From an uncultured Saprospiraceae bacterium (GTDB taxonomy: Bacteria; Bacteroidota; Bacteroidia; Chitinophagales; Saprospiraceae), in the NCBI GenBank assembly GCA_937921555.1, contig CAKZUV010000191.1, positions 1-34,767 on the forward strand: DNA of 34,767 nt, in the 5' to 3' direction. A program made the position numbers and the translations under genes. Numbering within the stretch: the first letter of the stretch is position 1; each line of letters opens with the position of its first letter. Below the pieces are notes generated by a model. That model did no database searches. It had not been told where the DNA came from and saw only the letters and a list, made by a program, of their open reading frames with translations. Shown here piece by piece: positions 12,572 to 34,635 of this stretch.

Positions 12572-14149
12572 TTATCTATAACCATTGTTGGTCGGATCAG
12601 ATTCCAGCAGGTTAGGATTCAACTGTAGTTCCTGTAAAGGGATCGGAAGTAAAACGTGGTGAGGTCTGATATTCACGTTCGGTTGCCAGAAACGAAATTC
12701 CAGATTTTGCACTACATCCAATAAAATCCCCCATCTGATCAGGTCGTATCTTCGGTGCGCTTCGGCAGCTAACTCCCATTTACGTTCATCATAAATTGCT
12801 TCTCTGAATCCTTGTTGGCTAAGACCTCTGATGGCCTCTGCTTCTTCCACGGTTGCAAAAGCACGTTCTCTAACCGCTCTGATATATTCAAAAGCATCGT
12901 CAGGATTCCCACCAGATCTTTCATTTTCACACTCAGCGGCCATCAAATGTACATCTGCCATACGAAATACCAATCTGTTATCTGAGTGATTAAAACGTGG
13001 AGAAGTTTCCAGGTCTAAATTCCAGAATTTAGCCATGTATGGAAAAACCAAATCAAATCCTAAATAATTATCTACAATATTCAATTCTCTTCTTAAATCA
13101 TTCATCGGGAATTTTTCCGCAAAATCTTTGGAAGCAACTTGCAGACCGGTACCATTAAAGGCCTGACCATTCTCAGCTAAGGCAGCCGCCAATGCATCTC
13201 TTTCGTTTGTATTCAATGGTTCATCTCTTAAACGAGGATTGAACATACTAGGTCTCCAACTATTATTACCAGCGAAAGCTCTACCTGGAAATGCGGGGTC
13301 AAATATTCCTTCTATGTCTTTTGCAAAATCTAAAGACCAGATAATCTCATCGTTATATTCATTTAAAGGATCAAAAACTTCCGCATAGGTTGGTAATAAG
13401 GAATGAGGCGACTCATTAATAATCTCCAAACACTTATCCAAACCTGCTTGCCAGTCTTGTTGTTTCATGTAAATTTTTGCTTCAACTATCGCTGCGGCCC
13501 ATTTTGAAGCCCGGCCTCGATCAGCTCCCGTGTAGGAGTCTTGCAGATTAGCTTGTGCAAATCGCAAATCTGCCAATACCCCTTCTATGATCGTTGCTTC
13601 GTCCGTTCTTCCTAATGAACCGATTTCTTCTAACGTAAGTACATCTGTGTAATACGGTGCATCTCCCCAGAGATTGGTAATATGCCAATAACATAAAGCC
13701 CGAATAAAAGTAGCATCCGCAATAATATCTGTTGCTGCTGCTTCCGATATCCCCTCATTACCAGTTACCCTGGCAATGATTGTATTTGTATTCAGAATTA
13801 CACGGTAGAGATCCTTCCAAGTATCTGACACACTCATTTTCTGAACCGATACATCCGCCAGGGCTTCATTCAGAGAGTAATTTCCAATGGGCTCTACGAA
13901 ATTGGCAGAACGATTGGGTTCGATAATGTCCGCACCATTATCATAAAAATGATCCAATCCAACCTGACCGTAGATAGAATTATTTTTTAGAATGGCGTAC
14001 ACACCATTAATTGCTTGTCTGGCATCATTTTCAGATGCGAAAAAAGTTTCTGGAGAAACTAGCGCTCTTGGATCCTCTTCCAGGAAATCACTACATCCAA
14101 AAAGAGACAGGATCATGAACGCGCCGAAAAGTATTTTTTTATTTATCAT
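12572..14149 (-). CDS. susD: SusD/RagB-family glycan-binding outer-membrane lipoprotein
   Basis: 525 aa, the usual size for the family. It starts MINKKILFGAFMILSLFGC, a lipoprotein signal with Cys at 19, followed by SDFLEEDPRALVSPETFF and a run typical of SusD N-termini (NDARQAINGVYAIL). The helical TPR-like middle and the C-terminal RRYDLIRWG motif are present. SusD proteins sit on the cell surface as the lid of the SusC transporter and bind released oligosaccharides. It starts 12 bp after the susC stop, so the two are co-transcribed. Given the enzymes opposite, the likely ligand is an ulvan-type sulfated oligosaccharide; that is inferred. Confidence 0.95.
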   Translation of the reverse strand: MINKKILFGAFMILSLFGCSDFLEEDPRALVSPETFFASENDARQAINGVYAILKNNSIYGQVGLDHFYDNGADIIEPNRSANFVEPIGNYSLNEALADVSVQKMSVSDTWKDLYRVILNTNTIIARVTGNEGISEAAATDIIADATFIRALCYWHITNLWGDAPYYTDVLTLEEIGSLGRTDEATIIEGVLADLRFAQANLQDSYTGADRGRASKWAAAIVEAKIYMKQQDWQAGLDKCLEIINESPHSLLPTYAEVFDPLNEYNDEIIWSLDFAKDIEGIFDPAFPGRAFAGNNSWRPSMFNPRLRDEPLNTNERDALAAALAENGQAFNGTGLQVASKDFAEKFPMNDLRRELNIVDNYLGFDLVFPYMAKFWNLDLETSPRFNHSDNRLVFRMADVHLMAAECENERSGGNPDDAFEYIRAVRERAFATVEEAEAIRGLSQQGFREAIYDERKWELAAEAHRRYDLIRWGILLDVVQNLEFRFWQPNVNIRPHHVLLPIPLQELQLNPNLLESDPTNNGYR

Positions 14150-14161
14150 TTTTATTTATTT

Positions 14162-17100
14162 TTAAAAAGTTGCATTTAAACCAAATGTTAAAACTCTTGG
14201 ATTTGGATATTCACCATCCGCATAACCTTGCGCAATATTACCCAGCCCATTTCTTCCAAAACGACTGGTCTCCGGATCAATTAATCTAAAGTTAGAAACT
14301 AATAAAAGATTTGTTCCGGTAAAGTAAATCGTTGCATTTGAAATACCTTTTATGGCATCTGGTGCAAAATTATAAGCTAGTCTAACGGTCTTTAACCGAA
14401 TGTGTGATCCATCCTCGACAAATAACGTATTACTTAAATTATTGGTAATCGCATCCGATCCTGCTCTTGGAATATCGGAAGTAGGATTTTCTTCTGTCCA
14501 ACGATTCGCCAGATCCGCAAATTTTGTGGTCTCTCCCCGGTTAAAGAAATGATTACGCATCCTTAGGTTATACATCTCATTTCCAACCGTACCTTGAAAG
14601 TAAAAGGAAAAATCAAAGTTTTTATACGAAAACGTATTTTCAAAACCAAAAATCAAATCCGGCGTAGGATCTCCTAAAACAACATTGTCCTCCGTTGAAA
14701 TAATTCCGTCACCATTCAAATCTTCGTACCTCGGGCCTCCCACCACTTGAGAAGTTAAACCAGATGCATCAATTTCTTCCTGACTTTTCCAGGTTCCTAA
14801 ATAGTTAACTCCGGTAAAAACAGGCACTGGCTGACCTACAATCAACCGGGTATTTCCCGAACCAATGATTGGATCGACCACCACATCAATAAATTCAGCC
14901 CCACCGAGATCCAAAATTTTATTGTTGTTAGACGACAAGGTAACGGTGGACATCCAGGTAAAAGCCTTACCCGTAATATTTCTTGAAGTTAAAAGAAACT
15001 CCCATCCTTTATTTTCTAAAGATCCAATATTTTGTAATTGGCTGGTAAAACCAGTCTGTCTCGGAATAGCAACATCCAGCAGCAAATCTTCCGTTTTCTT
15101 CGCGTAATAATTTATTTCTGTAAAAATTCTCCCTTTTAATAAAGAAGCTTCCAGTGCTATATCAAACGAACGGGTTGTCTCCCATTGTAAGTTTGGATTA
15201 GAAGGTCTACCAATCGTTAAACCTGGCACTTCCTGGCCATTAAGGGTCGTATTGGCTTCGGTTAACAATCCAAGTGTCCGGTAAGGACCAATGGCCTGGT
15301 TACCCGCTTTTCCAAGACTAGCTCTTAATTTCAGGTCTTCAAAAACATTCTGGTTTTGCATAAATCCTTCTTCAGTGATTTTCCACGCAGCAGCTATCGA
15401 TGGATAAAATTCGTATTTATTTCCCGGAGCGAAAACAGAACTACCATCTGTTCTTCCAACTACGGTAAACAGATATTTGTCTTTCAGCGTATAATTTATT
15501 CTTCCGAAGAAAGAAGCAATTTGAAATCCATTAAAACCGCTGGTAATAACTGCTCGGGTAGGATCAGAAAATCCTAAATTGTTAAAACCCGTGGCATCAC
15601 TGGAAATACCAAATGCTGACGCTAATGATCTTTCGGTTTGTACTTGCTGAAAAGAAGCACCAGCTAAGGCCGTGATACTGTGGTCTGCCCCAAAATCAGA
15701 GGAATACTGTATCGTATTTTCATTATTCCATCCGACGCTTGCCACTGAATTTACACTTGCCTGTCCACCATCCGTTACACCGATGGCCAAATTACCTGGC
15801 AATTGGCTGGAGGTGAATCTATTTTGTCTGGTGTTATTAAATTCTGGATTAAACGTAGAACGAATGGTCCACTTTGGAGCCGGACTATATTCCAGATAAA
15901 CAGTAGCCAATAAATTATTGGTAAATGTTTCGTTTGTATTCAATGCTATATTTGCCAGCGGATTGGAGAATGGTGCACCAACCACTTCATTAAATCCATT
16001 AAAAGAACCATCGTCATTAAAGATAGGCTGGGTAGGAAGGGTGGCAAAAGCATTACCAAAACTTGCTACACCGTTATCCCGGTTTATTCTTGAATAATTA
16101 AATCTGAATCCTGCACTTAATTTATCATTTAATTTCAAGTCTAAATTGGATCGGAAAATGTATTTTTCAATACCCGTACTCTTAATCAGTCCATCCTGGT
16201 TAAAATAACCTAAGGAAGTATAATATTTAACTTTTCCACTTTCTGAGGAACCAGAAATAGAAAGGTCAGCATTGTACATAGGAGATGGATCCAGTAACTG
16301 GTCATACCAATCAATATCGGGATAAGTGGAAGGATCATCCGGAAATGGTTGTGCGGCTGCTCTGAACCGGGCACTTTCATTGGTAAAGGCAATTTGCTCT
16401 TCCTGAGAAAGCATATCCGGTAATTCCGGAATCAACTGTACTCCACTGTAGAGGTTCAGACTTACTTGTGGTACGCCCGCATTTAAACCGCCACCGCTTT
16501 TGGTGGTCAGCAAGACTACTCCATTGGCACCTCGCGAACCATAAATGGCAATTGAAGAGGCGTCTTTTAGTACTTCGAGTGACTGAATGTCATTGGCGTT
16601 GATGTTATTTAAGTTGAAATTTGTTCCAACTACGATACCATCTATCACCCAGAGCGGTTCATTACTTCCGGTAATTGAGTTACCCCCTCTCACCCGAATG
16701 GCTGTTGGCGCACCAGGGGAACCATTGGTCTGGGTAACCTGCACCCCGGCAGCTCGTCCTTGCAATGCCTGATCTACTCTTGATACCGGTACTTTGGCGA
16801 TGTCTTTGGCACTAATACTCGCAACGGAACCCGTCAGATCAGATTTCTTTTGTTTACCGTATCCCACTACCACCACTTCATCTAACAATTCTCCTTCCCG
16901 CAAAACGACATCAATGTTTGTTCTGCCTCCTATAATTTCTTCCACGTCTTGATAACCGGTGTAAGAAAAAAGAAGCACTTTTTCCCCCTCACCAAGGGTG
17001 ATGGAATAGTTACCATTAACATCTGTGGCAGTACCGATAGTGGTTCCTTTTTGGACAATATTTGCTCCGATTAAACCTTCACCGTCTACAGATTTGACGG

Positions 17101-17239
17101 TTCCGGTGATCTTTTCCTGAGCAAAAGACGTCATCCAAAAAGAACTACTGAAGAAGAGAAAAGCAAGAAATCTAATCCCAACGGTTCGATTGGGTTTTAT
17201 TCGTAATTTCCTCGTCCAACTTTTGTTGATTTTTCGCAT
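14162..17239 (-). CDS. susC: SusC/RagA-family TonB-dependent outer-membrane transporter
   Basis: 1025 aa. A long signal peptide ends near residue 40 (TSFA-QEK). Residues about 43-112 form the carboxypeptidase-regulatory-like domain (GTVKSVDGEGLIGANIVQKG). The TonB-box/linker EVVVVGYGKQ is at 121-130, then a plug domain with QALQGRAAGVQV and the PLWVIDGI motif. The rest is a 22-strand-type barrel ending PRVLTFGLNATF. It imports oligosaccharides with its SusD partner, powered by TonB-ExbBD. It is divergent from the GH2 gene across a 242-bp gap with an inverted pair of operator-like sites. The first one, closest to this gene, ends about 120 bp upstream of the start. Confidence 0.96.
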   Translation of the reverse strand: MRKINKSWTRKLRIKPNRTVGIRFLAFLFFSSSFWMTSFAQEKITGTVKSVDGEGLIGANIVQKGTTIGTATDVNGNYSITLGEGEKVLLFSYTGYQDVEEIIGGRTNIDVVLREGELLDEVVVVGYGKQKKSDLTGSVASISAKDIAKVPVSRVDQALQGRAAGVQVTQTNGSPGAPTAIRVRGGNSITGSNEPLWVIDGIVVGTNFNLNNINANDIQSLEVLKDASSIAIYGSRGANGVVLLTTKSGGGLNAGVPQVSLNLYSGVQLIPELPDMLSQEEQIAFTNESARFRAAAQPFPDDPSTYPDIDWYDQLLDPSPMYNADLSISGSSESGKVKYYTSLGYFNQDGLIKSTGIEKYIFRSNLDLKLNDKLSAGFRFNYSRINRDNGVASFGNAFATLPTQPIFNDDGSFNGFNEVVGAPFSNPLANIALNTNETFTNNLLATVYLEYSPAPKWTIRSTFNPEFNNTRQNRFTSSQLPGNLAIGVTDGGQASVNSVASVGWNNENTIQYSSDFGADHSITALAGASFQQVQTERSLASAFGISSDATGFNNLGFSDPTRAVITSGFNGFQIASFFGRINYTLKDKYLFTVVGRTDGSSVFAPGNKYEFYPSIAAAWKITEEGFMQNQNVFEDLKLRASLGKAGNQAIGPYRTLGLLTEANTTLNGQEVPGLTIGRPSNPNLQWETTRSFDIALEASLLKGRIFTEINYYAKKTEDLLLDVAIPRQTGFTSQLQNIGSLENKGWEFLLTSRNITGKAFTWMSTVTLSSNNNKILDLGGAEFIDVVVDPIIGSGNTRLIVGQPVPVFTGVNYLGTWKSQEEIDASGLTSQVVGGPRYEDLNGDGIISTEDNVVLGDPTPDLIFGFENTFSYKNFDFSFYFQGTVGNEMYNLRMRNHFFNRGETTKFADLANRWTEENPTSDIPRAGSDAITNNLSNTLFVEDGSHIRLKTVRLAYNFAPDAIKGISNATIYFTGTNLLLVSNFRLIDPETSRFGRNGLGNIAQGYADGEYPNPRVLTFGLNATF

Positions 17240-17357
17240 AATTAATAGTTTTAATTTTAAAAGATTTACCTATTTGTAATACAATACTTAACCCATTGCT
17301 TTATTTAAACAACCAAGGATAATTTTAAACAAAATTATATTAGCAGAATTAAACATC

Positions 17358-17404: not shown

Positions 17405-17481
17405 GCATACACGATAAAAAAACCCAACTTCAATAATTATTTTTATTGATAAATCAGCAATGAAAAAATCATTTTACAAAA

Positions 17482-20400
17482 ATGAATTTAATTAAAAAAA
17501 ATATACTGTTACTGTTATTTTTTTCAACCTCGCTAGTTGTTTTTTCTCAGCGGATAGAAACCAATTTCAATAATAACTGGCATTTTATTTTAAAAGATAA
17601 TTCCTCTTTTTCAAACGAAAAGGTGGATATTTCTGATTGGAAAAACTTAAATGTTCCTCATGATTGGTCTTTTGAAAAGGGAGTGAGAAAAGGTGGAGAC
17701 CAGGGGCAAGGTGGTGGTTATCACGATGGAGGTATTGGTTGGTATCGTAAATCGTTTACTGTAAAAAAGAATAATTTATCAAACACCACCTACCTCAATT
17801 TTGATGGTGTTTACATGAATAGTGAAGTTTGGATTAATGACAATTATTTAGGAAAAAGACCTTACGGATATATCAGTTTTCGATACGATATTTCTAAATA
17901 TTTAAAGGAAGGTAAAAACACGATTGCGGTGAGGGTGGATAATAGTTTGGAGCCTTCTGCGCGATGGTATCATCCCTGTGGGATTTATGCACCCGTAAAG
18001 TTGATTCAGGTAAATCCTCATCACATTGCTCCCAACGGCGTTTTTGTGACCACGCCAAAAATTGAAAAAAATCAAGCGACCGTTCATGTAAAAGTAGATT
18101 ATAATGATGCTTTAAATAATTTAAAGAGCAACGTAATAATTTTATCCCCCGAAGGAAAGGTATTAAAAACCAATTCAAAAACTATTAAGGGTTCTGAAAG
18201 CGATATTGATTTAACCATAAATAATCCTGAACTATGGAGTCCTGAAACCCCGATTTTGTACCAGGCAATCACCCAAATTTTAGAGGGTGAAAAAGTAATT
18301 GATGAAGTAAAAACAACTTTCGGATTTAAAACGGTAGAATGGAAAACCGAAACGGGTTTTTGGTTGAATGGAAAAAATATAAAACTAAAAGGCGTTTGCG
18401 AACATTGGGAAGGTGGTCCGGTCGGAGGTGCCTGGACAAAACCCATGTTACGTTGGAAATTACAATCCCTGAAAGAGATGGGCATCAATGCCATTCGTCC
18501 TTCTCACAACCCTACTCCACCGATGTTTTATGATATTTGTGATGAAATTGGATTGTTAGTCATGGATGAAATTTTTGATGGTTGGCACAAAAAAGCACCG
18601 GAAGATTATGGCAAACAGGCGTTTGATGAATGGTGGCAACGCGATGTGAAAGAATGGATTACGAGAGATAGAAACCACGCAAGCATTTTTGTCTGGAGTT
18701 TGGGAAATGAAACGCATGATGACATTGCTCCAGAATTGGTGCAGTTTGGAAAAAATTTAGACCCGACCCGATTATTTACTTCCGGCGCAGGAAATCCGGA
18801 AGACATGGATATTGAAGGCGTAAATGGCGGTTCCGAAACCAGGAAATTTATCGAAAGCGCAAATTTTGATAAACCATTTATTTCTACCGAAGCGCCGCAT
18901 ACTTGGCAGACACGGGGATATTACAGAACCCAAACCTGGTGGAGAGATAATGAATTACCAGGCACTTACCCTTTGCCAAATTTAACGGAAAAAGAAATTT
19001 TCTTCTACGAAGGCATCAACCCAAAAGATTGGAAAAACAGAAAACAAAGTTTCAATTCTTCCTATGACAATGCCACCGTAAGAGTTTCTGCCAGAAAATA
19101 TTGGGAAGTCATGCGGGATAATCCCTGGCATAGCGGTCATTTTAGATGGACAGGTTTTGATTATTATGGAGAAGCGGGTTTAGCACATGGCGGTTTACCA
19201 TTTAATTTATTTATGGGCGGTGCTTTGGATGTGGCGGGTTTTAAAAAGGATTTATTTTATTTCTACCAAAGCCAATGGACTAAAAAACCAATGGTCCATA
19301 TTTTACCACATTGGACACATCCAAGAATGAAAAAAGGAACCGTCATTCCTGTTTGGGTTTATTCAAATACAGATGAAGTAGAATTATTTCTAAACGGAAA
19401 ATCTTTAGGAAAAGACCAACCGGGCAAAGTTTGGAACGAAATGCAATGCGAATGGATGGTTCCTTATCAGGAAGGAACGTTAGAAGCAGTCGCTTATCAA
19501 AACGGAAAAGAAGTAAAAAGAACTTACTTTCACACCGCTAAACAACCGTCAAAATTAAAGACCAACCTACAAAAATTAAACGCAGAATCTGGCTTCACTT
19601 CGTGTTACATTATCACCTCAGCAGGGCTTGATGAAGACCATAATCTATTCCCGTACGGAGAAAATAAAGTGTATTATTACCTTCAGGGAGATATTAAAAA
19701 AATCGCTCTTGAAAACGGAAATCCGATTGACCCGACGAGCAGAACAAAGGCGGATTTTAGAAGTCTGTTTTTTGGTAAAACAAGATTATTTGTAAAAGAA
19801 AAAGAAAACGCTCAAAGTGCGTCAATCATCACGGGAGCCATTTTAGGTGACAAAGCATTATATCTTTCTAATAAAATTACCATTGACGCAAAACAACTGG
19901 AAATTTTGGGAGCAACCAATTATTCTGATTTAGAAATTCACTATACCATTAATGGTGAAAATCCTGAAACCAAAGGAATCGTTTATACCGCTCCGTTTCA
20001 AGTTGATGACGGAACGACCGTAAAAGCAGTGATAAAACAAAACGGAAAAGTGGTTTTAACGATGAGTGAAACCTTTGGAAAAAACGAAGGATTATTTTGG
20101 GGAGATGAGCACTCCAAGGATATGTGGAAAGGCAGAGGCATTAATATTGCTGCTGAAGAAGCGATACTTTCAGGAGCAGCCAAAGCGAGCGAAGACGCAC
20201 ATCATTACAAGGGTACTGGTTTTGTGAAATTTGATAAAAAAGAAGGGGCTATTACCTGGTACAAAGAAAATGACGGCGAAGGAAAAGCGTATAATATCCG
20301 TTTCAGATACATGCACAATGATGCGCATAATCGCTACCCCATGAAGCTGTATGTGAATGACGAATACGTAAAAACTTTTGAATTTAAACCGACAGGAGGT

Positions 20401-20520
20401 TGGGTGCAAAATTGGCGAGGGGTAAAAGCGAAAGTATTTTTTAAATCGGGCGCCAACAGCATTCGATTGGAAACGACCGGGCAAAGCGGTCCTTTTATAG
20501 ATGAATTGTTTATTGATTGA
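17482..20520 (+). CDS. Exported GH2 glycoside hydrolase (beta-galactosidase/glucuronidase superfamily) with C-terminal CBM-like domain
   Basis: 1012 aa. Signal peptide 1-22 (VVFSQ). Residues about 25-180 are the GH2 sugar-binding jelly-roll (VPHDWS, GGIGWYRK, WINDNYLG, WYHPCGIY), about 183-283 an Ig-like domain, and about 290-600 the TIM barrel. Predicted acid/base is Glu410 in WSLGNE and predicted nucleophile Glu470 in PFISTE. A DUF4982-like domain follows (about 615-685, EVELFLNGKSLG). A chitobiase-like Fn3-associated segment (about 800-865, LEIHYTINGENPET) and a CBM6/35-like domain (about 885-1012) end the protein. GH2 members with this C-terminal layout occur in algal-polysaccharide loci; exact sugar specificity cannot be told from sequence. 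First gene of the rightward block. Confidence 0.93.
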   Translation: MNLIKKNILLLLFFSTSLVVFSQRIETNFNNNWHFILKDNSSFSNEKVDISDWKNLNVPHDWSFEKGVRKGGDQGQGGGYHDGGIGWYRKSFTVKKNNLSNTTYLNFDGVYMNSEVWINDNYLGKRPYGYISFRYDISKYLKEGKNTIAVRVDNSLEPSARWYHPCGIYAPVKLIQVNPHHIAPNGVFVTTPKIEKNQATVHVKVDYNDALNNLKSNVIILSPEGKVLKTNSKTIKGSESDIDLTINNPELWSPETPILYQAITQILEGEKVIDEVKTTFGFKTVEWKTETGFWLNGKNIKLKGVCEHWEGGPVGGAWTKPMLRWKLQSLKEMGINAIRPSHNPTPPMFYDICDEIGLLVMDEIFDGWHKKAPEDYGKQAFDEWWQRDVKEWITRDRNHASIFVWSLGNETHDDIAPELVQFGKNLDPTRLFTSGAGNPEDMDIEGVNGGSETRKFIESANFDKPFISTEAPHTWQTRGYYRTQTWWRDNELPGTYPLPNLTEKEIFFYEGINPKDWKNRKQSFNSSYDNATVRVSARKYWEVMRDNPWHSGHFRWTGFDYYGEAGLAHGGLPFNLFMGGALDVAGFKKDLFYFYQSQWTKKPMVHILPHWTHPRMKKGTVIPVWVYSNTDEVELFLNGKSLGKDQPGKVWNEMQCEWMVPYQEGTLEAVAYQNGKEVKRTYFHTAKQPSKLKTNLQKLNAESGFTSCYIITSAGLDEDHNLFPYGENKVYYYLQGDIKKIALENGNPIDPTSRTKADFRSLFFGKTRLFVKEKENAQSASIITGAILGDKALYLSNKITIDAKQLEILGATNYSDLEIHYTINGENPETKGIVYTAPFQVDDGTTVKAVIKQNGKVVLTMSETFGKNEGLFWGDEHSKDMWKGRGINIAAEEAILSGAAKASEDAHHYKGTGFVKFDKKEGAITWYKENDGEGKAYNIRFRYMHNDAHNRYPMKLYVNDEYVKTFEFKPTGGWVQNWRGVKAKVFFKSGANSIRLETTGQSGPFIDELFID

Positions 20521-20526
20521 AAATTA

Positions 20527-20751
20527 GCCACGAAGACACAAAGTCACGAAGGTCTAAGAGCTTGTCCAAATTTTCATGATTGTGCGAAATTGAGGAAATT
20601 TTGTTTTGAATAAGGCAAAAAACACAGGCGATGCCTTAGCATCGGCGAGGCTTTTTAACGAAGTTCAGAATAAAATTTGCCAATTGTAGCCAATTAATGG
20701 AAGTTTAGACAAGCTCTAAATTAAAACTTAGCGTCTTTGAGCCTTCGTGGC
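20527..20751. repeat. Palindromic repeat interrupted by a MITE-like insertion
   Basis: The left arm starts GCCACGAAGACACAAAG (20527) and the right arm ends GAGCCTTCGTGGC (20751). Removing the 159-bp element and one TAA restores a hairpin of about 63 bp, very like the intact palindrome at 22228-22273. So the mobile element landed in its loop. Non-coding; it lies between the GH2 stop and the sulfatase start. Confidence 0.75.
20558..20716. mobile_element. MITE-like element, best-preserved 159-bp copy
   Basis: Ends GAGCTTGTC/GACAAGCTC are perfect inverted repeats, flanked by TAA at 20555-20557 and 20717-20719. The interior has no ORF but includes an imperfect hairpin, GATGCCTTAGCATC. A full-length diverged relative is at 7489-7647 and a 54-bp derivative at 2269-2322. 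The element is probably a non-autonomous relative of an IS5-type transposon, inferred from its ends and 3-bp duplication. Confidence 0.8.
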
Positions 20752-25793: not shown

Positions 25794-27203
25794 ATGGTTA
25801 AAAAACAATTGGTAGGGATGATGTGTTTTTTTTCAATCCTCTTAGCTTGCAACTCAAAAACCAAAGTTACTTCAGCCAAAGAAACCAGTACTTCAAAAGT
25901 AGATTATTTTGCCGATAATGGTTTTGGAAATGCCGTCGCAATTGTTCAACATCCGGCAGGCATTTACCACGAAGGGGTGACCTACGTTTGCTATCAGGGA
26001 CCACTCGAAGACCCTTATGTCGCTGCTTACAACCATAAGACCGGCGAATGGAAAGGCCCCTACAAAGCAGGTATAAGTGAGATGGGAAAAGACCTTTTTC
26101 GTAAAAAGAGCATAGATAACCACGGCAAACCCTCCATGATGATTGATGATGCGGGATATATTCACATTGCGTTTGGTGGTCACGGCGGCATGAGAAAACA
26201 TGGTGACAATCCATTAGGAAATCATCATTATGGAAAAAATTTACACGCAGTATCCAAAAAACCTTTAGATATTTCCAGTTGGAAAATGCTTGATAATATT
26301 CCGCCATTTGGCACTTATAATCAGTTTGTAAAAATGGATAATGGCGATATCTATCTGTTTTATCGTCATGGCGCCCACCGCAGTAATTGGGTTTATCAAA
26401 AATCTATCAACAATGGACTTACTTTCGATGCGCCCGTTTCATTTTTAAAACATAAACGCAGAACGGATATGGAAGCCGAAGACTCCTGGTATCCCTGGAT
26501 TACCAAAGGAAAAGGAGACGATTTAATTGTAGCTTTTGATTATCATCTTTGCAGAGATGCAAGAAATAGTGAAGACAAACGGGGGCATATTCCCGAAAGA
26601 CACAATTTGTACTATATGGTCTTTGATACCAAGAAAGGGTTATGGAAAAATGTAAAAGGGGAACCACTTAATATGCCATTAATTAGAGAAGAAGCAGACG
26701 AAAAAGCATTGGTCACAAAAATAAATAACGATTGGACTTTTCAAGCCGTCGTAGATTTAAATCCGGATGGTAATCCTCATGTTTGTATAAGAGTTGGAGC
26801 AGATACGGGCAGGCGAAGAAGTGCTCCAAAAAGTTTACATCATTTTCGCTGGAATGGAGTCGCATGGGTACAAAGTAAAAACGCTCAACTTCCCGTAGGA
26901 GGTGGAGATATAGCAATAAATTCTACCAATAATGTGAATATTTATTTAGATGATTCTGGAGCAGGTGAGGTAAGCAGATGGGATAGTTTTGACGCAGGAG
27001 ATACTTTTAAAAAAGGGCCTGTTCTTCTACGTAGAAATAATTCCGGTTTCGCAATATCTTCCCTTATCGATAATGCTCACCCGGACGCAAAAATTATTGT
27101 AGCAGAAAAAGAATCGGGAACGTATTTTAGGAAAATGTATCTTTTAGGGGATAAAGGTGCTGTTCAACGTGACAAGGAGGAGGCTGAGGTGTTGGAAGAT
27201 TAA
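25794..27203 (+). CDS. BNR/beta-propeller polysaccharide lyase lipoprotein, PL25/PL24-like ulvan lyase
   Basis: 469 aa. Lipoprotein signal with LLAC, Cys19. The body is a seven-bladed-propeller-like BNR_4 protein: GIYHEGVTYVCYQGP, then IDNHGKPSMMIDDAGYIHIA, FGGHGG with His130, paired His144-145, LFYRHG (Tyr190, Arg191), SWYPW and AFDYH (Tyr250, His251). Ulvan lyases of PL24 and PL25 use His/Tyr/Arg clusters in this fold, and these residues lie at comparable spacing; the match is from memory of the family, not an alignment. It would cleave rhamnose-3-sulfate to uronate linkages by beta-elimination, leaving an unsaturated uronate. Surface or periplasmic lipoprotein. Translationally close to GH106 (one-base gap). 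Confidence 0.75.
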   Translation: MVKKQLVGMMCFFSILLACNSKTKVTSAKETSTSKVDYFADNGFGNAVAIVQHPAGIYHEGVTYVCYQGPLEDPYVAAYNHKTGEWKGPYKAGISEMGKDLFRKKSIDNHGKPSMMIDDAGYIHIAFGGHGGMRKHGDNPLGNHHYGKNLHAVSKKPLDISSWKMLDNIPPFGTYNQFVKMDNGDIYLFYRHGAHRSNWVYQKSINNGLTFDAPVSFLKHKRRTDMEAEDSWYPWITKGKGDDLIVAFDYHLCRDARNSEDKRGHIPERHNLYYMVFDTKKGLWKNVKGEPLNMPLIREEADEKALVTKINNDWTFQAVVDLNPDGNPHVCIRVGADTGRRRSAPKSLHHFRWNGVAWVQSKNAQLPVGGGDIAINSTNNVNIYLDDSGAGEVSRWDSFDAGDTFKKGPVLLRRNNSGFAISSLIDNAHPDAKIIVAEKESGTYFRKMYLLGDKGAVQRDKEEAEVLED

Positions 27204-27252
27204 ATTAATAAATAGAAGTTGTTTAAAATTCCCTTTAATACAAAACGAAATC

Positions 27253-28752
27253 GTGAAAAAAGTAAATCTAATCATATTTGTTCTCCTTGCACTTTTCATG
27301 TCCTGCAACCCGGAAAAAAACCACGAGCGTCAAGCAGCAGAAACACCAAAACCCAATGTGTTATTTATCGCCGTCGATGATTTGAATACCTGGCTGGGCT
27401 GTCTGAATAATTTTTCTAACACTAAAACTCCAAATATTGACAAGTTGGCAGCGCAGGGTGTTTTATTCTCTAATGCCCATTGTCAAGCTCCGTTGTGTGG
27501 CCCGTCCCGTGCCTCCGTCATGACCGGTTTGCGCCCCTCCACGACGGGAATGTATGGAATGACGCCCGATGAGCAAGTACGTTCTGACAATCCAGTTACC
27601 AAAGACATTACCTTCCTTCCCGAATATTTTAAAGAGAATGGATACCACACGATGGGTATCGGAAAGTTGTTTCATGTTTATGCGCCAAAAGGATTATTTG
27701 ACGAAGAAGGAGGCAGAGTGAGAGGTTTTGGTCCTCATCCGGAAAAACGATTTGTCTGGGATGGATTTGGAACTTCAAAACAAAAAAAGGAAAAATATGG
27801 ACGGACCAATACAGATTGGGGGGCGTTTCCTGAGACAGATTCTTTGATGCCAGACCACCAATCCGTTGATTGGGTAATCGAACATTTAAACAAAAAATAT
27901 GAGAAACCATTATTTATGGGTTTGGGATTTTTGCGTCCTCATGTCCCTTTGTATGTTCCGCAAAAATGGTTTGATATGCATCCACTTGAAGGAATCGAAG
28001 TACCACCTTATTTGTCAGATGATTTAAATGACATTCCGCCCGTCGGTCTGCAAATTAATGATTTGCCGATGATGCCATCTACGGAATGGGCAAAGGAAAG
28101 TGGTGAATGGAAAAAGATTATTCAGGCTTATTTAGCTTGTGTAAGTTTTGTTGATTATGAATTAGGACGGGTGATGCACGCGCTGGAAAAAAGTGAACAT
28201 GCCGACAATACGATCATCGTTTTATGGTCTGACCACGGGTATCGTTTAGGAGAAAAAGGAACGTTTGCAAAACATGCGTTATGGGAAACCGCCACCCACG
28301 TCCCCTTAATATTTGCAGGACCTAATGTGCCAAAAGGAAAAATAGTCGATGCCCCCGTCGAACTACTTTCCCTCTATCCTACTCTTTTAGCATTAACCGG
28401 TCTACCCGCTTATAACAGAAATGAAGGTAAAAGTTTAGTACCTATGATGAATGATAAAAAGCAGGAAGAAGGAGCTTTCGCATTAACCACGTTCGGAATG
28501 AATAATCATGCGGTGAAGGCTAATGGAAATCGCTACATCAGATATGAAGATGGAACAGCGGAATTTTATGACCATAAAAAAGATCCAAACGAATGGACGA
28601 ATGAAGCTAAAAACCCAAATTACAAAAATGAAATAACTGCCCTGAAAAAATATTTACCAACCACCAATCTGCGCTGGGACGCAAATTCTAATTACCCGTT
28701 CCAACCTTATTTTGTGAAGCAAAAGCAACGGGTAAACGGGGCAGCAAAATGA
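27253..28752 (+). CDS. S1-family sulfatase lipoprotein, iduronate-2-sulfatase-like
   Basis: 499 aa with a GTG start at 27253, chosen because it begins the signal VKKVNLIIFVLLALFMSC (lipid Cys18). A longer frame from 27157 would overlap the lyase gene and add a non-signal leader. Metal-site VDD near 41-43; formylglycine motif CGPSR with Cys82; WSDHGYRLGEKG and the KHALWE active-site stretch later. Similar overall to iduronate-2-sulfatase (FLRPHVPLYVP, CVSFVDYELGR). Third gene type in the block acting after the lyase. Sulfate position attacked cannot be told from sequence. Confidence 0.92.
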   Translation: MKKVNLIIFVLLALFMSCNPEKNHERQAAETPKPNVLFIAVDDLNTWLGCLNNFSNTKTPNIDKLAAQGVLFSNAHCQAPLCGPSRASVMTGLRPSTTGMYGMTPDEQVRSDNPVTKDITFLPEYFKENGYHTMGIGKLFHVYAPKGLFDEEGGRVRGFGPHPEKRFVWDGFGTSKQKKEKYGRTNTDWGAFPETDSLMPDHQSVDWVIEHLNKKYEKPLFMGLGFLRPHVPLYVPQKWFDMHPLEGIEVPPYLSDDLNDIPPVGLQINDLPMMPSTEWAKESGEWKKIIQAYLACVSFVDYELGRVMHALEKSEHADNTIIVLWSDHGYRLGEKGTFAKHALWETATHVPLIFAGPNVPKGKIVDAPVELLSLYPTLLALTGLPAYNRNEGKSLVPMMNDKKQEEGAFALTTFGMNNHAVKANGNRYIRYEDGTAEFYDHKKDPNEWTNEAKNPNYKNEITALKKYLPTTNLRWDANSNYPFQPYFVKQKQRVNGAAK

Positions 28753-28873: not shown

Positions 28874-30526
28874 ATGAAGATAGTATCTCAAGTATCAATA
28901 GTCTTTTTTTTAACACTCATTTTTTTGAGCTGTGGCTCCTCAAAATCAGACAAAAAAAAGAATCATCAAAAAAGACCAAACATCGTATTCATATTTGCCG
29001 ATGATTTAGGCTGGACGGATCTAAGCACAGGAAACACAAATGAAAACAGAGGATCTGCAATTTATGAAACTCCCGTAATTGATAAACTGGCATCTCAGGG
29101 AATGTCTTTTACAAATGCATATACCAATCAAAATTGTGCACCATCAAGAGCCGCGCTAATTAGTGGCCAATATCCTGCCGGTGCAGATAATCAGGTTTAT
29201 AATGTTGGATCTCTGAAAAGACAAGACCAAAGAACCAAAGGATTTCCCAATGTCCTGATTGAACCATTCAAGCAAAAAAAAGTAATTTCAGAAGATGGAA
29301 TTAATATGTTTGATATACTAAAAACCCAAGGTTATCACACGGCATTGGTGGGTAAAAGTCACGGCACGCCACATCCTTTAAAAGGTGATTTCGGGATTGA
29401 TTTACCGGCAGACATTCACCATATTATAGCAGCTCCTATTGACGGAAAAAGAACAAAATCCTTTTACTTAGCTTTAAATGCTGATACAAAAGGATGGACT
29501 TTTAATTCGGAGTTTGTCGATAAATACGCAAATCCTTATGATGATGAATATATCAATACCATTTTAAAACCTTTTCATTCACCATCAGATGTCGCGCTTT
29601 TAAAAGGAACACCAAAACATCTTACAGATGCGATCGGCGATTTTTGTGCAGACTATATCAAAGAAAAAGCCAATGGCGAACATCCGTTTTTTTTATATGT
29701 ACCTTTTCACGCAGTACATTCTGATGTTACCGGTAGGAAAGATTTAACTCAAAAATATTTAGAAAGAGGTTTAAAACCTAAGATAGCGGAATACGCTTCT
29801 ATGATTGAGTTATTAGACCAAAATGTTGGAAAAATAGATCATGCATTGAGAGATCCAAATGGAGATGGCAATCTTGAAGATAATATTTCAGAAAATACCA
29901 TTTTTATATTTTATTCTGATAATGGAGGTTTATTTAAAAACACACCACTGAAAGGTAAAAAAGGAAATTTAACGGAAGGTGGAATCAGAGTTCCGTTAAT
30001 TTTCAGATACCCGAATGTGATTGCTAAAAATACAATCACGAATCAAGCGGTTCATTGCATTGATTTTTTACCGACTTTCGCAGAATTAGTCGGCGTAGAT
30101 ATAGCTAAACTTAAAAAGAAGGATGGAACTCAACCTAAATATGACGGGGCTTCATTCGCTAAAATTCTAAAAGGAGAAGCAAAAAGAATCTCAAGAGAAA
30201 AATTGTTTTGGCACTTGCCGGGATATATGGATGAACGTTTTTCTCCAACGACCTTGCTGCAAAAAAGAATTGAAAATGAGTATTACAAACTGTTTTATTT
30301 TTATGAAACAGAGGAATTTGAATTGTATAATATAACGAATGATATTTCTGAAAAAAGAAATATTTTAGAAAACCCCTCATCCACAGAAATGGAAATTGCT
30401 TTACAAATGAACGCGGATATGCTAACCTGGTTAAAGACAAACAATGCGCCAACTGGAACTTGGGTGAAAAATGGAAAAACAGTACCCTACCCTGAAATGG
30501 AGGGCGTTAAAAAATATAAAAAGTGA
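28874..30526 (+). CDS. S1-family sulfatase lipoprotein, arylsulfatase A/GALNS-like
   Basis: 550 aa. Lipoprotein signal MKIVSQVSIVFFLTLIFLSC, Cys20. FADDLGWTDL at 41-50 binds the metal; formylglycine motif CAPSR has Cys88; the second metal region is SDNGG with the KGKKGNLTEGGIRVPLIF stretch, typical of arylsulfatase A-type enzymes rather than IDS-type. It thus belongs to a different S1 branch from its neighbours at 20767, 27253 and 32017 and probably takes a different sulfate position. A 121-bp gap precedes it, the largest within the second half of the block, so a secondary promoter is possible. Its stop overlaps the next start. Confidence 0.92.
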   Translation: MKIVSQVSIVFFLTLIFLSCGSSKSDKKKNHQKRPNIVFIFADDLGWTDLSTGNTNENRGSAIYETPVIDKLASQGMSFTNAYTNQNCAPSRAALISGQYPAGADNQVYNVGSLKRQDQRTKGFPNVLIEPFKQKKVISEDGINMFDILKTQGYHTALVGKSHGTPHPLKGDFGIDLPADIHHIIAAPIDGKRTKSFYLALNADTKGWTFNSEFVDKYANPYDDEYINTILKPFHSPSDVALLKGTPKHLTDAIGDFCADYIKEKANGEHPFFLYVPFHAVHSDVTGRKDLTQKYLERGLKPKIAEYASMIELLDQNVGKIDHALRDPNGDGNLEDNISENTIFIFYSDNGGLFKNTPLKGKKGNLTEGGIRVPLIFRYPNVIAKNTITNQAVHCIDFLPTFAELVGVDIAKLKKKDGTQPKYDGASFAKILKGEAKRISREKLFWHLPGYMDERFSPTTLLQKRIENEYYKLFYFYETEEFELYNITNDISEKRNILENPSSTEMEIALQMNADMLTWLKTNNAPTGTWVKNGKTVPYPEMEGVKKYKK

Positions 30527-32010
30527 ACAGGAAATTCCCCATAATATTGTTATCAGTAATAATATTCAGTTTAATTGGATATTTGCTTCATAAGAATTCA
30601 AAATCAGACGCTTTTGCTAAAGTTGAAAACCAGCAACATCAAAGCAGCCAACCAAACATTATATTTTATTTAGCAGACGACCAGGATGTTTATGATTATG
30701 GTTGTTATGGTAATGAAAAAGTAAAAACGCCTGCGGTAGATCGTTTGGCAAAAGAGGGAATGTTATTTACCAATGCGTTTACCGCTCAAGCCATTTGTGC
30801 GCCGAGTCGGTCGCAAATTTTTACTGGAAAATATCCGCTTAAAAATGGTTGTTTTGCAAATCATACGGCCACAAAACCCGATATTGAAAGTGTAACTTCC
30901 AGAATGAAAAAACTAGGTTACGAAGTTGTTTTAGCAGGAAAAAGTCACGTAAAACCAGATAAGGTTTATGATTGGGATAAAGCATGGGAACCGGTTCCTA
31001 AAAAAAATGTACCAAGAGATTATATTCCTTTGGACAGCATTGAAAACTATTTTAAAACTGCAAAAAAACCGTTTTGTATGTTTATTACTTCAAAGTATCC
31101 GCATGGTAAATATTTTGAGGTCAACAACCCGAATGCAGAAGACATTAAGTTTTTTCCATTTAACGAAAGTAAGAAAACCGATAAAAAATTTGTCGCAAAA
31201 AAAGCAGGCTACTACAGAAGTATTGCGGAAGATAACACGCAAATAGAAAAAGTATTAGATTTGACAGATGAGCATTTGGATGAAAACACCTTGTTTATTT
31301 ATAGTGCAGACCACGGAGTTTCAGGAAAATTTACCGTCAAAGATATTGGTTTAAAAGTGCCGTTTGTTGCACGTTGGTCAAAAGTTATAAAGCCTAATTC
31401 GACCTCTAATCAACTCATTCATTATACCGATGTCTTACCAACGTTTCTGGAAATAGCCGGTGGTGAAGTTACAGATGATATGGATGGACATAGTATTTTA
31501 CCTTTATTAAAAGGTGAGGACGTTCCAATAAATAAGTATGTTTATGGAGTAAGAACAAATCAGAATATTTTAAATGCTGAAATATTTCCGTCAAGAATGA
31601 TTCGAGATAAACGGTATAAATACATTCGTAATTTTAATGCTTTAGAAGTGCTGGAACAAAATTTAACAGGAAAGTCTAATGTTGATTATTTTATCAAAAG
31701 AGGCGCGAATAAATTTAATAACGAACCCTTTGAAGAATTGTATGATTTACAAAACGACCCTTTTGAAATACAGAATTTGGCTCAAAATCCGGAATTAAAA
31801 ATAATTAAAGAAAAGTTGACTAACGATTTATTTATTTGGATGAAATCTCAGGGCGATTTTCTAAATAATGAATTAGGAAATATGCCCATCATTACTCCAA
31901 AAGGAAAAAAAGGTTTTAAATTGGACCAGGACACCCCAACCAGAAAAATCGCCGATTCGCTAAAAAATACTTTAACTAAAGACGATTACATCATCATTAA
32001 ACATTGGTAA
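30523..32010 (+). CDS. S1-family sulfatase, membrane-anchored or exported
   Basis: 495 aa with a GTG start overlapping the previous stop (GTGA), which indicates translational coupling. Residues 5-23 are a hydrophobic signal or anchor (FPIILLSVIIFSLIGYLL) without a lipobox. ADDQD at 51-55 and formylglycine motif CAPSR with Cys92; the second metal site reads SADHG. It is shorter in the middle than the IDS-like paralogues and has the LxVPFVARW stretch, recalling the sulfamidase/S1_8-type branch; the subfamily is uncertain. Acts on a sulfate ester of the same glycan. Confidence 0.9.
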   Translation: MNRKFPIILLSVIIFSLIGYLLHKNSKSDAFAKVENQQHQSSQPNIIFYLADDQDVYDYGCYGNEKVKTPAVDRLAKEGMLFTNAFTAQAICAPSRSQIFTGKYPLKNGCFANHTATKPDIESVTSRMKKLGYEVVLAGKSHVKPDKVYDWDKAWEPVPKKNVPRDYIPLDSIENYFKTAKKPFCMFITSKYPHGKYFEVNNPNAEDIKFFPFNESKKTDKKFVAKKAGYYRSIAEDNTQIEKVLDLTDEHLDENTLFIYSADHGVSGKFTVKDIGLKVPFVARWSKVIKPNSTSNQLIHYTDVLPTFLEIAGGEVTDDMDGHSILPLLKGEDVPINKYVYGVRTNQNILNAEIFPSRMIRDKRYKYIRNFNALEVLEQNLTGKSNVDYFIKRGANKFNNEPFEELYDLQNDPFEIQNLAQNPELKIIKEKLTNDLFIWMKSQGDFLNNELGNMPIITPKGKKGFKLDQDTPTRKIADSLKNTLTKDDYIIIKHW

Positions 32011-32016
32011 AACAAC

Positions 32017-33441
32017 ATGAAATCACTTTTAAAATGTATAGTTATTACACTTCTTTTTTTATCATGTAATAATGAAAAAAAAGATACGGCGGTCATGGAA
32101 GAAAAAAAGCCAATGAACATCTTGTTCATTGCGGTTGATGATTTACGGCCTGAACTTAATTTTTACGGTGCTCATCATATTCAGTCTCCCAACCTCGATA
32201 AATTAGCCGACAAGAGTTTGGTATTTAACCGTGCGTATTGTAATATTCCTGTTTGTGGTGCATCCCGGGCAAGTCTATTAACCGGAATGCGCCCTACAAG
32301 AAAGCGTTTCATCAATTATAGTACGAGAGTAGATGTTGAAGTACCTTTTGCTACGTCCCTGCCAAAGCTTTTAAAACAGAATGGTTATACTACCATTTCA
32401 AATGGAAAGAATTATCATCATAATTCGGATGATAGTTTAGCATGGGATTATAAATGGTTTCCGGAAGGTAATATCAGAAATTATCAACTGGAAAAAAATA
32501 TAATTGAAAACGGTCGCGCGAACTTAGCCATGGGAGGTGCCAGCGCTTTTGAAAATGCGGAGGTGGACGATACCGCTTATTTTGATGGAGAAATTGCCCA
32601 AAAGGGAATAGAAGATTTAAGACGTTTGAAAAATAATAAAGAGCCTTTCTTTTTGGCTTTGGGTTTCATGAAACCTCATTTACCATTTAACGCACCAAAA
32701 AAATATTGGGATTTATATGATAGCAATCAAATTGAATTGCCTGAAAGTTATGTGCAACCAGCATCTACCCCAAAAAAGGCATTCCACAACTACGGCGAAT
32801 TACGTAACTATGGCAATATCCCAAAGAAAGGGACTTTACCGGAAGATTTAGCAAAAGAATTAATTCATGGGTATTATGCCTGCGTGAGTTATGTCGATGC
32901 ACAAATTGGATTGGTGCTGGACGAATTGGAGCGGACAGGTTTAGCTGACAATACGATTATTGTTTTGTGGGGCGACCACGGTTGGAACTTGGGGGAGCAT
33001 CAACTTTGGTGCAAACACGTAACCTTTGAAACCGCGCTCCGGACACCTTTGGTCGTAAAAATACCTGGGAAAACAAAGGGTGAAAAATCAAATTCGATTA
33101 TTGAATATATTGATATATATCCAACGCTTTGTGAACTTTTAGGGTTGGAAATACCGGAAACCGTGGAAGGGAAAAGTTTGGTTCCCATCATAAATGGTCA
33201 AGCAAATAGTAAGGACTGGGCCGTTTGTAAATTTAAAGATGCCGTAACTTTAATCAAAGGCGATTTATTTTATACTGAATGGACGGATGACGCAGGAGTT
33301 GCTTATGAGCGGATGTTATTCGACCATACATCAGACCCTCTGGAATTAGATAATTTGGCGGAAAAAATTGAACACCAGGAAATCGTAGTTGAACTATCAA
33401 AAGAATTACGTCAAAAATGGGGAAATGATTTCCTAAAATAA
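32017..33441 (+). CDS. S1-family sulfatase lipoprotein, iduronate-2-sulfatase-like, CGASR variant
   Basis: 474 aa. Lipoprotein signal [17 protein letters not shown], Cys17. [13 protein letters not shown] binds the metal. The formylglycine motif is CGASR (Cys80), with Ala where the other four sulfatases have Pro; C-x-A-S-R is an accepted variant for maturation by anaerobic-type maturases. [16 protein letters not shown] is the later metal/active-site region. It shares [17 protein letters not shown] and the [15 protein letters not shown] region with the sulfatase at 20767, and the DNA is also near-identical there, so a recent duplication or conversion is likely. It starts six bases after the previous stop. 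Confidence 0.93.
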
Positions 33442-33456
33442 GAGCTTGTCTAAAGC
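33442..33456. repeat. Lone terminal repeat of the MITE-like element
   Basis: GAGCTTGTCTAAA directly follows the sulfatase stop codon TAA, matching the element's end and its usual TAA flank. No partner end is seen nearby before the next gene at 33478, so this is a remnant or chance similarity to one end. Confidence 0.4.
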
Positions 33457-33477
33457 GGTCAAAAATATATCAAGTCG

Positions 33478-34635
33478 ATGCAAAAGAATAAATTAGCAAA
33501 CCTCCTGTCACTTATCATAATCTTGATGACGATCAGTAGTTGTTCGTCAAAAAAAGAAACAACATTATTATTTATTGGAAGTTTTACGGATAAGCAACCC
33601 GGCAAGGGAATATCCATCTATGAGTTCAATAATGAAACAGGTGAAGCCGAATTGAAATTTCAATTAGACAGTCTTATCAATTCGTCTTTCTTACGGCTTT
33701 CGCCAAATGGGAAATTTCTCTATTCAGTCGTCGAAAGCCAAATGCCCTATCATGGCAAAATAGCTGCTTTCAGCATCGACTCCCTGAAGGGAAAAATTTC
33801 ACTATTAAATATGCAGGATTGTGGTGGCAGAAATCCAGTACATCTGGAGATAGATAAAACGGGTCAATATCTTATCAATTCAAATTATACCGACCCCAGT
33901 CTTAGCGTTTTCAAAATAAAACCGGATGGCAGCTTAAATGAAAATTCACAAACCATTCCTTTTCAGGGAAGTAGTATCATCGCAGAAAGGCAAGCAATTG
34001 CTCATATTCATTCCTCCAATTTTTCCCCGGATGGAAACTACTTATTCGCCCAGGATTTAGGGGCAGATAAAATTCATAAATTTAATATTGTTAAAAATAA
34101 AGAGGGAGATATATCCCTGCAAAGAGATTCTCCAATAGATGTAAAACCGGGTAGCGGCCCGAGACATTTCACTTTTCACCCAAGTGGCAAATACGGCTAT
34201 GGTATTACTGAATTGAGTGGAAAAATAACCGCCTACAAATTCACAAAAGACAGCTTGGAATTTTTAGAAGACTATCAGGCAAATCGTAAAAGCCAGGATA
34301 TTTACCGCTCGGCAGATATTCATATTTCGCCGGATGGTAAATTCCTATACGCTTCTAATCGCGGTCCGGAAGAAAATACCATTGCCATTTTTTCTATAAA
34401 CCCAATAGACGGTAAATTAAAGTTGGTGGGTCATGAATCTACTCATGGCAATCATCCAAGAAACTTTGCAATTGATCCATCCGGCAATTTTTTATTGGTC
34501 GCCAATCAACGTTCCGATAAAATTGTAATTTTCCGACGCCACCTAAAAACCGGAAAATTAAACAAACTACCTCATGAAATAATGCATGGCACCCCTTCAA
34601 GTCTGCAAATGCGAACTTATAAATTTCATCAATAA
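33478..34635 (+). CDS. Lactonase-family beta-propeller lipoprotein (6-phosphogluconolactonase-like)
   Basis: 385 aa. Lipoprotein signal MQKNKLANLLSLIIILMTISSC (Cys22). The body is the seven-bladed lactonase fold (PF10282 type): FIGSFTDKQPGKGISIYEF, FLRLSPNGKFLYSV, GRNPVHLEIDKTGQYL, SNFSPDGNYLFAQDLGADKI, GSGPRHFTFHPSGKYGYGI, DIHISPDGKFLYASNRG, and GNHPRNFAIDPSGNFLLVANQ. Family members hydrolyse sugar lactones such as 6-phosphogluconolactone, but an exported lipoprotein cannot act on a cytosolic phosphate sugar, so an unphosphorylated aldonolactone or a glycan-binding role is more likely; that is inference. Last gene of the block, 36 bp after the last sulfatase. Confidence 0.85.
   Translation: MQKNKLANLLSLIIILMTISSCSSKKETTLLFIGSFTDKQPGKGISIYEFNNETGEAELKFQLDSLINSSFLRLSPNGKFLYSVVESQMPYHGKIAAFSIDSLKGKISLLNMQDCGGRNPVHLEIDKTGQYLINSNYTDPSLSVFKIKPDGSLNENSQTIPFQGSSIIAERQAIAHIHSSNFSPDGNYLFAQDLGADKIHKFNIVKNKEGDISLQRDSPIDVKPGSGPRHFTFHPSGKYGYGITELSGKITAYKFTKDSLEFLEDYQANRKSQDIYRSADIHISPDGKFLYASNRGPEENTIAIFSINPIDGKLKLVGHESTHGNHPRNFAIDPSGNFLLVANQRSDKIVIFRRHLKTGKLNKLPHEIMHGTPSSLQMRTYKFHQ

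Follow-up and report, generated by a model that had tools for sequence, protein, structure and literature searches.

A probable ulvan utilization locus in an uncultured Saprospiraceae bacterium and its conserved sulfatases

Ulvan lyases, a SusC/SusD pair, and sulfatases in one cluster

Contig CAKZUV010000191.1 (C191) of an uncultured Saprospiraceae bacterium (assembly GCA_937921555.1) is exactly 34,767 bases long; this whole stretch is referred to below as the window. Judging from its genes, the window is very probably one part of a system with which this marine member of the Saprospiraceae uses ulvan. SusC and SusD, ulvan lyases, sulfatases, and a rhamnosidase family occur together in one cluster, the combination by which an ulvan polysaccharide utilization locus (PUL) is recognized in Bacteroidota. 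Ulvan, a sulfated polysaccharide from green seaweed cell walls, had been proposed as the substrate in an earlier note made from the sequence alone, and the proposal is supported: three window proteins belong to ulvan lyase families, and PL24, PL40, and a third PL28 protein are encoded elsewhere in the genome, on contigs C366 and C301. The SusC/SusD pair, GH2, GH106, BNR-type protein, and five sulfatases described in that note are full-length open genes at the places it gave, with families above their cut-offs. The stretch it delimited, 12572-34635, excluded two PL28 genes at 7789-11661, which are the strongest evidence for ulvan, and its account lacked the exported lactonase-family protein at 33478-34635.

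The product of the gene at 25794-27203 (+) matches the BNR_4 profile (72 bits) and is homologous to the solved PL25 ulvan lyase 5UAM (536 bits, residues 31-460 of 469). The catalytic histidine (HGKP; Asn in 5UAS) is aligned in the window protein, and the histidine of the His-Gly-Lys site was found by pattern in all 73 PL25 relatives. On the strength of this homology, the protein is assigned to the PL25 ulvan lyases and not to lyases of another polymer, and the same check on the jelly-roll pair of the earlier note also favored ulvan. Two further lyases, at 7789-9354 (+) and 9424-11661 (+), score 384 and 391 bits against the PL28 profile PF22826, which has a cut-off of 27. The first carries a PLH30 trefoil (169 bits) and a type IX secretion system (T9SS) tail; in the second, two PLH30 stretches flank the lyase domain (trefoil repeats at 9526 and 10756), and the T9SS tail score lies marginally below its cut-off.

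The transport pair consists of SusD (12572-14149, −; SusD_RagB, 99 bits) and a SusC TonB-dependent transporter (14162-17239, −) with plug and carboxypeptidase-regulatory domains in Pfam. On the plus strand follow GH2 (17482-20520; assigned by Pfam, with DUF4982, Fn3-assoc, and a weak CBM6-like C-terminus), a member of the GH106 alpha-L-rhamnosidase family (22310-25792; PF17132, 647 bits against a cut-off of 29), PL25, the five sulfatases, and an exported seven-bladed lactonase-family protein (33478-34635; PF10282, 331 bits; matching 3fgb and 6igb, PpgL).

The remainder of the system on other contigs

The ulvan lyase families PL24, PL25, PL28, and PL40 are all present in this one genome, on three contigs, and 9 of its 10 PF00884 sulfatases are encoded on these contigs (five on C191, three on C366, and one on C301; the tenth is on C304). 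C366 (28 kb) has the end or a fragment of a PL40 gene at its terminus (393 bits to Uly1040), together with GH2, a GFO/IDH/MocA oxidoreductase, GH43, GH3, GH88/105, GH78, the third PL28, and three sulfatases. The GH105/GH88 enzyme for the unsaturated uronate is therefore off the window contig and lies beside PL28, PL40, and sulfatases on C366. C301, which from its sequence may be a neighbor of C366, encodes a sulfatase|GH78 fusion (S1_25|GH78) that scores 832 bits to 6HR5, which is P36_S1_25 (PMC9096561). It also encodes a protein of PL24 type (230 bits to 6BYP, LOR-107; PMC12915356) that has CBM6 and a T9SS tail.

Could the window instead be a complete, compact, stand-alone ulvan locus? The earlier note called its enzyme block a compact variant of known ulvan loci, and SusC/SusD, lyases, glycoside hydrolases, and sulfatases are assembled within 34 kb. 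However, GH105/GH88, GH3, GH43, and S1_25 are not among the scanned open reading frames (ORFs), the window spans its contig from end to end, and the missing steps exist on C366 and C301; moreover, the order GH2-GH106-PL25-S1 is common in Flavobacteriaceae. We consider a stand-alone locus quite improbable, and the description as a compact variant is not upheld.

Several side observations concern these contigs. Amid the ulvan genes of C366 (L002:14019-19425) are genes for a PSCyt1/PSCyt2/PSD1 cytochrome-type protein, DUF1501, and NHL proteins, which we take to be typical of Planctomycetes. Repeats within C366 (L002, approximately 4525-4640 and 13635-13750) are matched by the two termini of C301, whose right terminus also looks like the beginning of another PL24-type gene.

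Five window sulfatases from several S1 branches

The window sulfatases, here S1a (20767-22221), S1b (27253-28752), S1c (28874-30526), S1d (30523-32010), and S1e (32017-33441), all on the plus strand, match PF00884 with 128 to 164 bits against a cut-off of 25. The modifiable cysteine motif is kept in every one (CAPSR, CGPSR, CAPSR, CAPSR, and CGASR, respectively), so that all five show the pattern C/S-x-P/A-x-R together with PF00884 by which a formylglycine (FGly) sulfatase of family S1 is recognized. By eye, their N-termini are export-like: four have a cysteine soon after a hydrophobic stretch (S1a, S1b, S1c, and S1e are predicted to be exported), and S1d has a hydrophobic segment.

S1 subfamilies were assigned through the nearest solved structures. 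For S1a, S1b, and S1e (P0001, P0002, and P0005), the nearest is 6HHM, followed by human IDS, itself listed as S1_7. S1a matches 6HHM with 812 bits over 464 residues, S1b with 204 bits (IDS, 177 bits), and S1e with 328 bits. The structure 6HHM is P18_S1_7 of Formosa agariphila, a 2-sulfo-xylose sulfatase acting on ulvan (review, PMC9096561). S1a appears very close to P18_S1_7, a closeness that suggests 2-O-sulfoxylose specificity, and S1b and S1e likely belong to S1_7 as well. Because the three are only 30-38% identical to each other, they are old paralogues rather than recent copies. S1c (P0003) is nearest to S1_16, with two S1_16 entries among its top three matches (6uss, 9fo1, and 7oza at 177, 174, and 163 bits; 9fo1 is S1_16, and 7oza is labeled BT3796_S1_16) and human ARSB and ARSA further down. 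S1d (P0004) differs from both the IDS-like and the S1c types: its best match reaches 119 bits, S1_11-type and S1_8 entries are mixed among its matches, and its predicted structure (mean predicted local distance difference test score [pLDDT], 46.7) is too poor for use. The claim of three IDS-like sulfatases, one ARSA-like, and one different from both agrees with these nearest structures, as does the claim of at least two or three S1 branches (IDS/S1_7-like, S1_16-like, and one unplaced). The motif CGASR occurs in all 26 S1e homologues found in PL25 loci at ≥40% identity; since alanine replaces the proline of this motif in 369 of 4058 sulfatases (PMC5066984), CGASR and CAASR are unremarkable on their own.

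Nine sulfatases are encoded on the ulvan contigs, two of them close to characterized enzymes (S1a and the S1_25|GH78 fusion), whereas the characterized ulvan cascade of F. agariphila employs three (PMC8511951).

An arginine-less sulfatase homologue associated with PL25

In a sulfatase homologue encoded on C366, here S_C (L003:6978-8288, −), C-x-P-x-R is replaced by C-[SA]-P-S-L. The canonical pattern occurs in none of its 37 homologues in PL25 loci (≥40% identity); in the alignment of S_C with these 37, leucine stands at the arginine position and the cysteine is kept in all. In 32 of the 40 Flavobacteriaceae loci, PL25 has an S_C homologue no more than 10 kb away, whereas in this genome S_C is on C366, not on the PL25 contig. 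Of the 37 homologues, 32 belong to Flavobacteriaceae; the others, at 43-46% identity, occur in Alteromonadales and in an Opitutaceae metagenome-assembled genome (MAG). In the L086 MAG, an Arg-less sulfatase homologue, S1b, SusC, and SusD stand in one row. Asp36, Asp37, Lys150, His215, Asp274, and Asn275 of S_C, residues of the kind that usually form the metal and catalytic site of sulfatases, are invariant across 17 aligned sequences, and among the 50 matches listed for its predicted structure (pLDDT 69.9), all are S1 sulfatases, at 20-24% identity. The authors of SulfAtlas reported isoleucine or leucine at this position in nine of 4058 sulfatases, from Lentisphaerae and Planctomycetes, and considered them perhaps inactive (PMC5066984); among the papers listed by a literature search on the motif, none concerned ulvan-linked homologues of this kind.

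As for maturation, a profile search of this genome for anSME (TIGR03942) gave nothing at an E value of 0.001 or better. Contig C198 (L105) encodes a candidate formylglycine-generating enzyme (FGE) with a C-x4-C pair identified by eye; a stricter pattern had no match. We tentatively propose, with the chances leaning somewhat against it, that S1b to S1e and S_C are ulvan enzymes of new specificity, that S_C is active although it has no arginine at the position where one is regarded as essential, and that ulvan contains more sulfate contexts than the characterized cascade addresses.

Conservation of the PL25 neighborhood

PL25 is rare: any match was found in 7 of 395 genomes drawn from the phylum, and identity above 50% only in this genome, G304, and G178. 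A scan for PL25 loci, which used an alignment of three PL25 proteins and two peptide patterns and is not exhaustive, yielded 75 loci: 40 from Flavobacteriaceae (36 with full flanks), 4 from Saprospirales (2 full), and 31 others (17 full). Orthologues were counted in flanks of up to 10 kb, at ≥55% identity and on the PL25 strand, and farther, weaker, or inverted genes are therefore missed. By this count, GH106 accompanies PL25 in 38 of the 40 Flavobacteriaceae loci, S1b in 36, GH2 in 25, S1d (at 74-81% identity) and S1e in 16 each, and the lactonase in 2. The four Saprospirales loci have GH106 in three, GH2 and S1a in two each, and S1b, S1d, S1e, and the lactonase in one each, and the 31 other loci have none of these genes at this threshold. 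Weaker or inverted relatives include S1b at 51% identity in L060, S1a at 55% on the opposite strand in L090, and GH2 at 42% in L082. The lactonase is also present in PL25 loci L017, L026, and L081.

In 31 of the 39 Flavobacteriaceae loci with sufficient upstream DNA, the end of GH106 is separated by under 400 bp from PL25, which lies downstream of it. Six exceptions (L018, L021, L023, L028, L031, and L044) contain an intervening gene matched by the C366 PL40 fragment at 35-37%; L054 has such a gene without a GH106 match, and the short contig of L046 lacks GH106. A search of 15 Flavobacteriaceae and 3 Saprospirales genomes found SusD orthologues at 70-82% identity in 10 of the former and 1 of the latter (11 of 18 in all), and the remaining seven, including Nonlabens ulvanivorans and the L017 genome, have no SusD over 49%. 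Of the 10 SusD-bearing Flavobacteriaceae, 9 have SusD and PL25 on one contig, 28-49 kb apart; Croceitalea has the two genes on different contigs. In the L086 genome, a SusC with 72% identity adjoins a SusD with 81% identity. A further PL25 protein from Saprospirales, in locus L062 (Neolewinella aquimaris), belongs to another clade (51% identity), groups with a Bacteroides-labeled MAG, and has no GH106 or close S1 block within 10 kb; PL25 relatives also occur in eight plasmid records.

The block recurs in named marine genomes. Loci of Polaribacter, Algibacter, and Hyunsoonleella share the order GH106-PL25-S1b, and many of them also contain GH2, S1c, S1d, and S1e. N. ulvanivorans (L081), whose PL25 NLR_492 is named as characterized (PMC13193363), shares that order, a PL40-type gene, and the lactonase but lacks a close SusD. 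PUL H of F. agariphila KMM 3901, compared by gene names rather than by sequence (PMC8511951, PMC9549685, PMC9096561, and PMC8360166), resembles the present system in PL28, PL40, the S1_25|GH78 fusion, GH105, GH3, and GH43, and in its adjacently numbered GH2 and S1_7 members (P17 and P18); PL25 and GH106, the division over contigs, and the Saprospiraceae host set the present system apart. The ulvan locus of Pseudoalteromonas marina PUA1001 shares PL24, PL25, PL40, and GH106 but belongs to another phylum and has two sulfatases, with no PL28 listed in the available text (PMC13050008). A 99-gene PUL of Algibacter sp. 4-1052 is likewise rich in GH106, PL40, PL25, and sulfatase genes but also includes GH29, and its predicted targets are fucoidan, ulvan, and/or rhamnogalacturonan (PMC10233909). 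The window locus is of an ordinary kind: many Flavobacteriaceae have ulvan loci of this PL25/GH106 type, and here the host belongs to Saprospiraceae.

A possible route of ulvan degradation and the weight of the ulvan reading

The substrate, the cell compartments, and the order of steps given here are those we infer from gene content, protein families, and conserved linkage. Surface PL28 lyases, exported by the T9SS and anchored to ulvan by their trefoils, would cut the polymer. Through SusC/SusD, the oligosaccharides would reach the periplasm, where PL25 and the PL40 of another contig could cut them further; S1a would remove the 2-O-sulfate from xylose, and S1b to S1e other sulfates; GH106 would trim rhamnose, and GH2 another residue. 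GH105, GH3, GH43, GH78, and the S1_25|GH78 fusion from C366 and C301 would complete the cascade. More speculatively, the lactonase might open a lactone produced by a periplasmic sugar oxidoreductase such as that of C366. The scheme follows the F. agariphila model, with PL28 outside the cell, SusC/SusD import, and periplasmic polysaccharide lyases, sulfatases, and exo-glycosidases (PMC8511951, PMC8360166, and PMC6168547); the reviews PMC9096561 and PMC8360166 disagree on the endo and exo roles of P18_S1_7 and P32_S1_8.

Several points weigh against the ulvan system as proposed. C191, C366, and C301 are separate contigs in the assembly, and a Pfam scan of 16 window ORFs revealed neither a regulator nor a GH105. 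Within 10 kb of PL25, S1c occurs in only 10 and S1a in only 8 of the 40 Flavobacteriaceae loci. N. ulvanivorans and four others of the 15 Flavobacteriaceae have no SusD above 30% identity, and the L017 genome reaches 28%. The S1 subfamilies come from nearest structures and not from SulfAtlas, and the place of GH106 in an ulvan locus is itself a prediction in PMC13050008.

A different rhamnose- and uronate-containing glycan, such as rhamnogalacturonan, a sulfated arabinogalactan protein, or a glycosaminoglycan, would require the ulvan families to be coincidental. The GH2, GH106, and S1_7 families are not restricted to ulvan, and one solved member of S1_16, the subfamily nearest to S1c, is labeled a kappa-carrageenan sulfatase. 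In addition, GH145, whose substrates are arabinogalactan proteins, has the same propeller and catalytic triad as PL25 (PMC8406133). Nevertheless, the presence of PL24, PL25, PL28, and PL40 on three contigs with nine sulfatases, the closeness of S1a and the S1_25|GH78 fusion to two characterized ulvan sulfatases, and the GH106-PL25-S1b arrangement shared with N. ulvanivorans make such a target very unlikely.

Origin of the ulvan block

The host was judged to belong to Saprospiraceae from its RpoB, which is 85-87% identical to that of three Saprospirales and 71-73% to that of 15 Flavobacteriaceae, and from a family code shared with G178. Five window proteins exceed the latter level in their best identities to Flavobacteriaceae (rows with >60% coverage): S1c (83.1%), S1d (80.8%), GH2 (79.5%), S1a (77.8%), and S1e (76.1%). 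Exported enzymes normally evolve faster than RpoB. In a tree of 74 PL25 rows, the window copy joins L017 in a Flavobacteriaceae-rich clade without Alteromonadales, and L086 falls elsewhere in that clade. Approximately unbiased (AU) tests on PL25 rejected Flavobacteriaceae as one clade (p = 2.4e-5) and the window, L017, and L086 as one clade (p = 3.4e-8). Transfer is likely because the five genes exceed RpoB and the PL25 trees nest the Saprospiraceae copies among Flavobacteriaceae; from these sequence comparisons, the ulvan block was likely acquired from Flavobacteriaceae, the direction being read from the nesting.

Two considerations count against this history. S1b (73.6%) only matches RpoB, and GH106 (70.5%) and PL25 (70.0%) are not above it, so that for these three genes transfer rests on trees. 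The trees were built by a quick method, and the AU groups, though taxonomic, were chosen after tree inspection. The near-RpoB identities of PL25, GH106, and S1b are what vertical descent from an ancestor shared by both families, Flavobacteriaceae and Saprospiraceae, would leave; GH2, S1a, S1c, S1d, and S1e exceed RpoB, however, both family clades are rejected for PL25, and in the GH106 and GH2 trees, which are unrooted and have no outgroup, Saprospirales and Flavobacteriales are mixed and not separable by one branch. The S1d tree, with a single Saprospirales row, gives little information. Vertical descent without transfer is thus unlikely.

The similarity to Flavobacteriaceae, in an assembly of 403 contigs with 1.49% contamination, could also point to a Flavobacteriaceae contaminant binned with a Saprospiraceae genome. 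This explanation is extremely unlikely given a repeat element internal to the operon. Resembling a miniature inverted-repeat transposable element, it is approximately 165 bp long with inverted ends, lies between GH2 and S1a (20557-20713; second copy at 7488-7644), and is present in this genome on 38 contigs, at 40 or more sites (64 rows, 24 of which repeat a site on the opposite strand; of 242 candidates, 40 were scored). Moreover, the closest relatives of the locus are the Saprospiraceae MAGs L047 (partial) and L017 (PL25, 89 and 73% identity; GH106, 90 and 75%), and the C-terminal part of a 1610-residue window protein matches many Saprospiraceae-family genomes.

Other features of the window

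The 1610-residue surface protein (2345-7177, −) combines a PLH30 trefoil, HYR, cohesin, and a T9SS tail in Pfam, where a dockerin falls under its cut-off, no lyase domain was found, and the N-terminal region has no match. At the DNA level, its trefoil and those of the PL28 genes share 75-81% identity over 309-339 nt, and the L017 locus encodes a 48% relative; an ulvan-binding adhesin is possible. Among the matches listed, nearly all fall within its C-terminal half and come from Saprospiraceae-family genomes, which suggests that this half is a common Saprospiraceae surface module. A role as a cellulosome-like scaffold was considered and rejected, as some match was found in all 100 Saprospiraceae-family genomes searched. 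At the contig edge, an open-ended protein (1-1884, −) in which a CDDGDCST... unit of about 30 residues is repeated in tandem has an N-terminus resembling that of the 1610-residue protein; the contig ends within the repeats.

At the other edge, the last gene ends 132 bp before the contig end. The starts used for S1a (20767), GH106 (22310), and S1b (27253) are likelier than those of the longest frames, and with them the apparent gene overlaps vanish. An Rfam scan of the window gave nothing at the gathering score, and for ten window proteins compared with NCBIfam, the only name over its cut-off was the jelly-roll domain of GH106.

Implications

Saprospiraceae is a core seaweed family (PMC10233909), and the available text of the same paper contains no Saprospiraceae ulvan PUL. 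The locus described here belongs to an apparently full ulvan system in this family, most likely gained from Flavobacteriaceae, and its comparison across genomes yields a short list of conserved, uncharacterized sulfatases tied to PL25. Among them, S_C offers a test of whether the arginine of the FGly motif is dispensable. Should these sulfatases prove active on ulvan, they would point to sulfate positions or contexts that the three-sulfatase cascade of F. agariphila does not cover, and they would help to make enzyme cocktails for green-tide biomass more complete.

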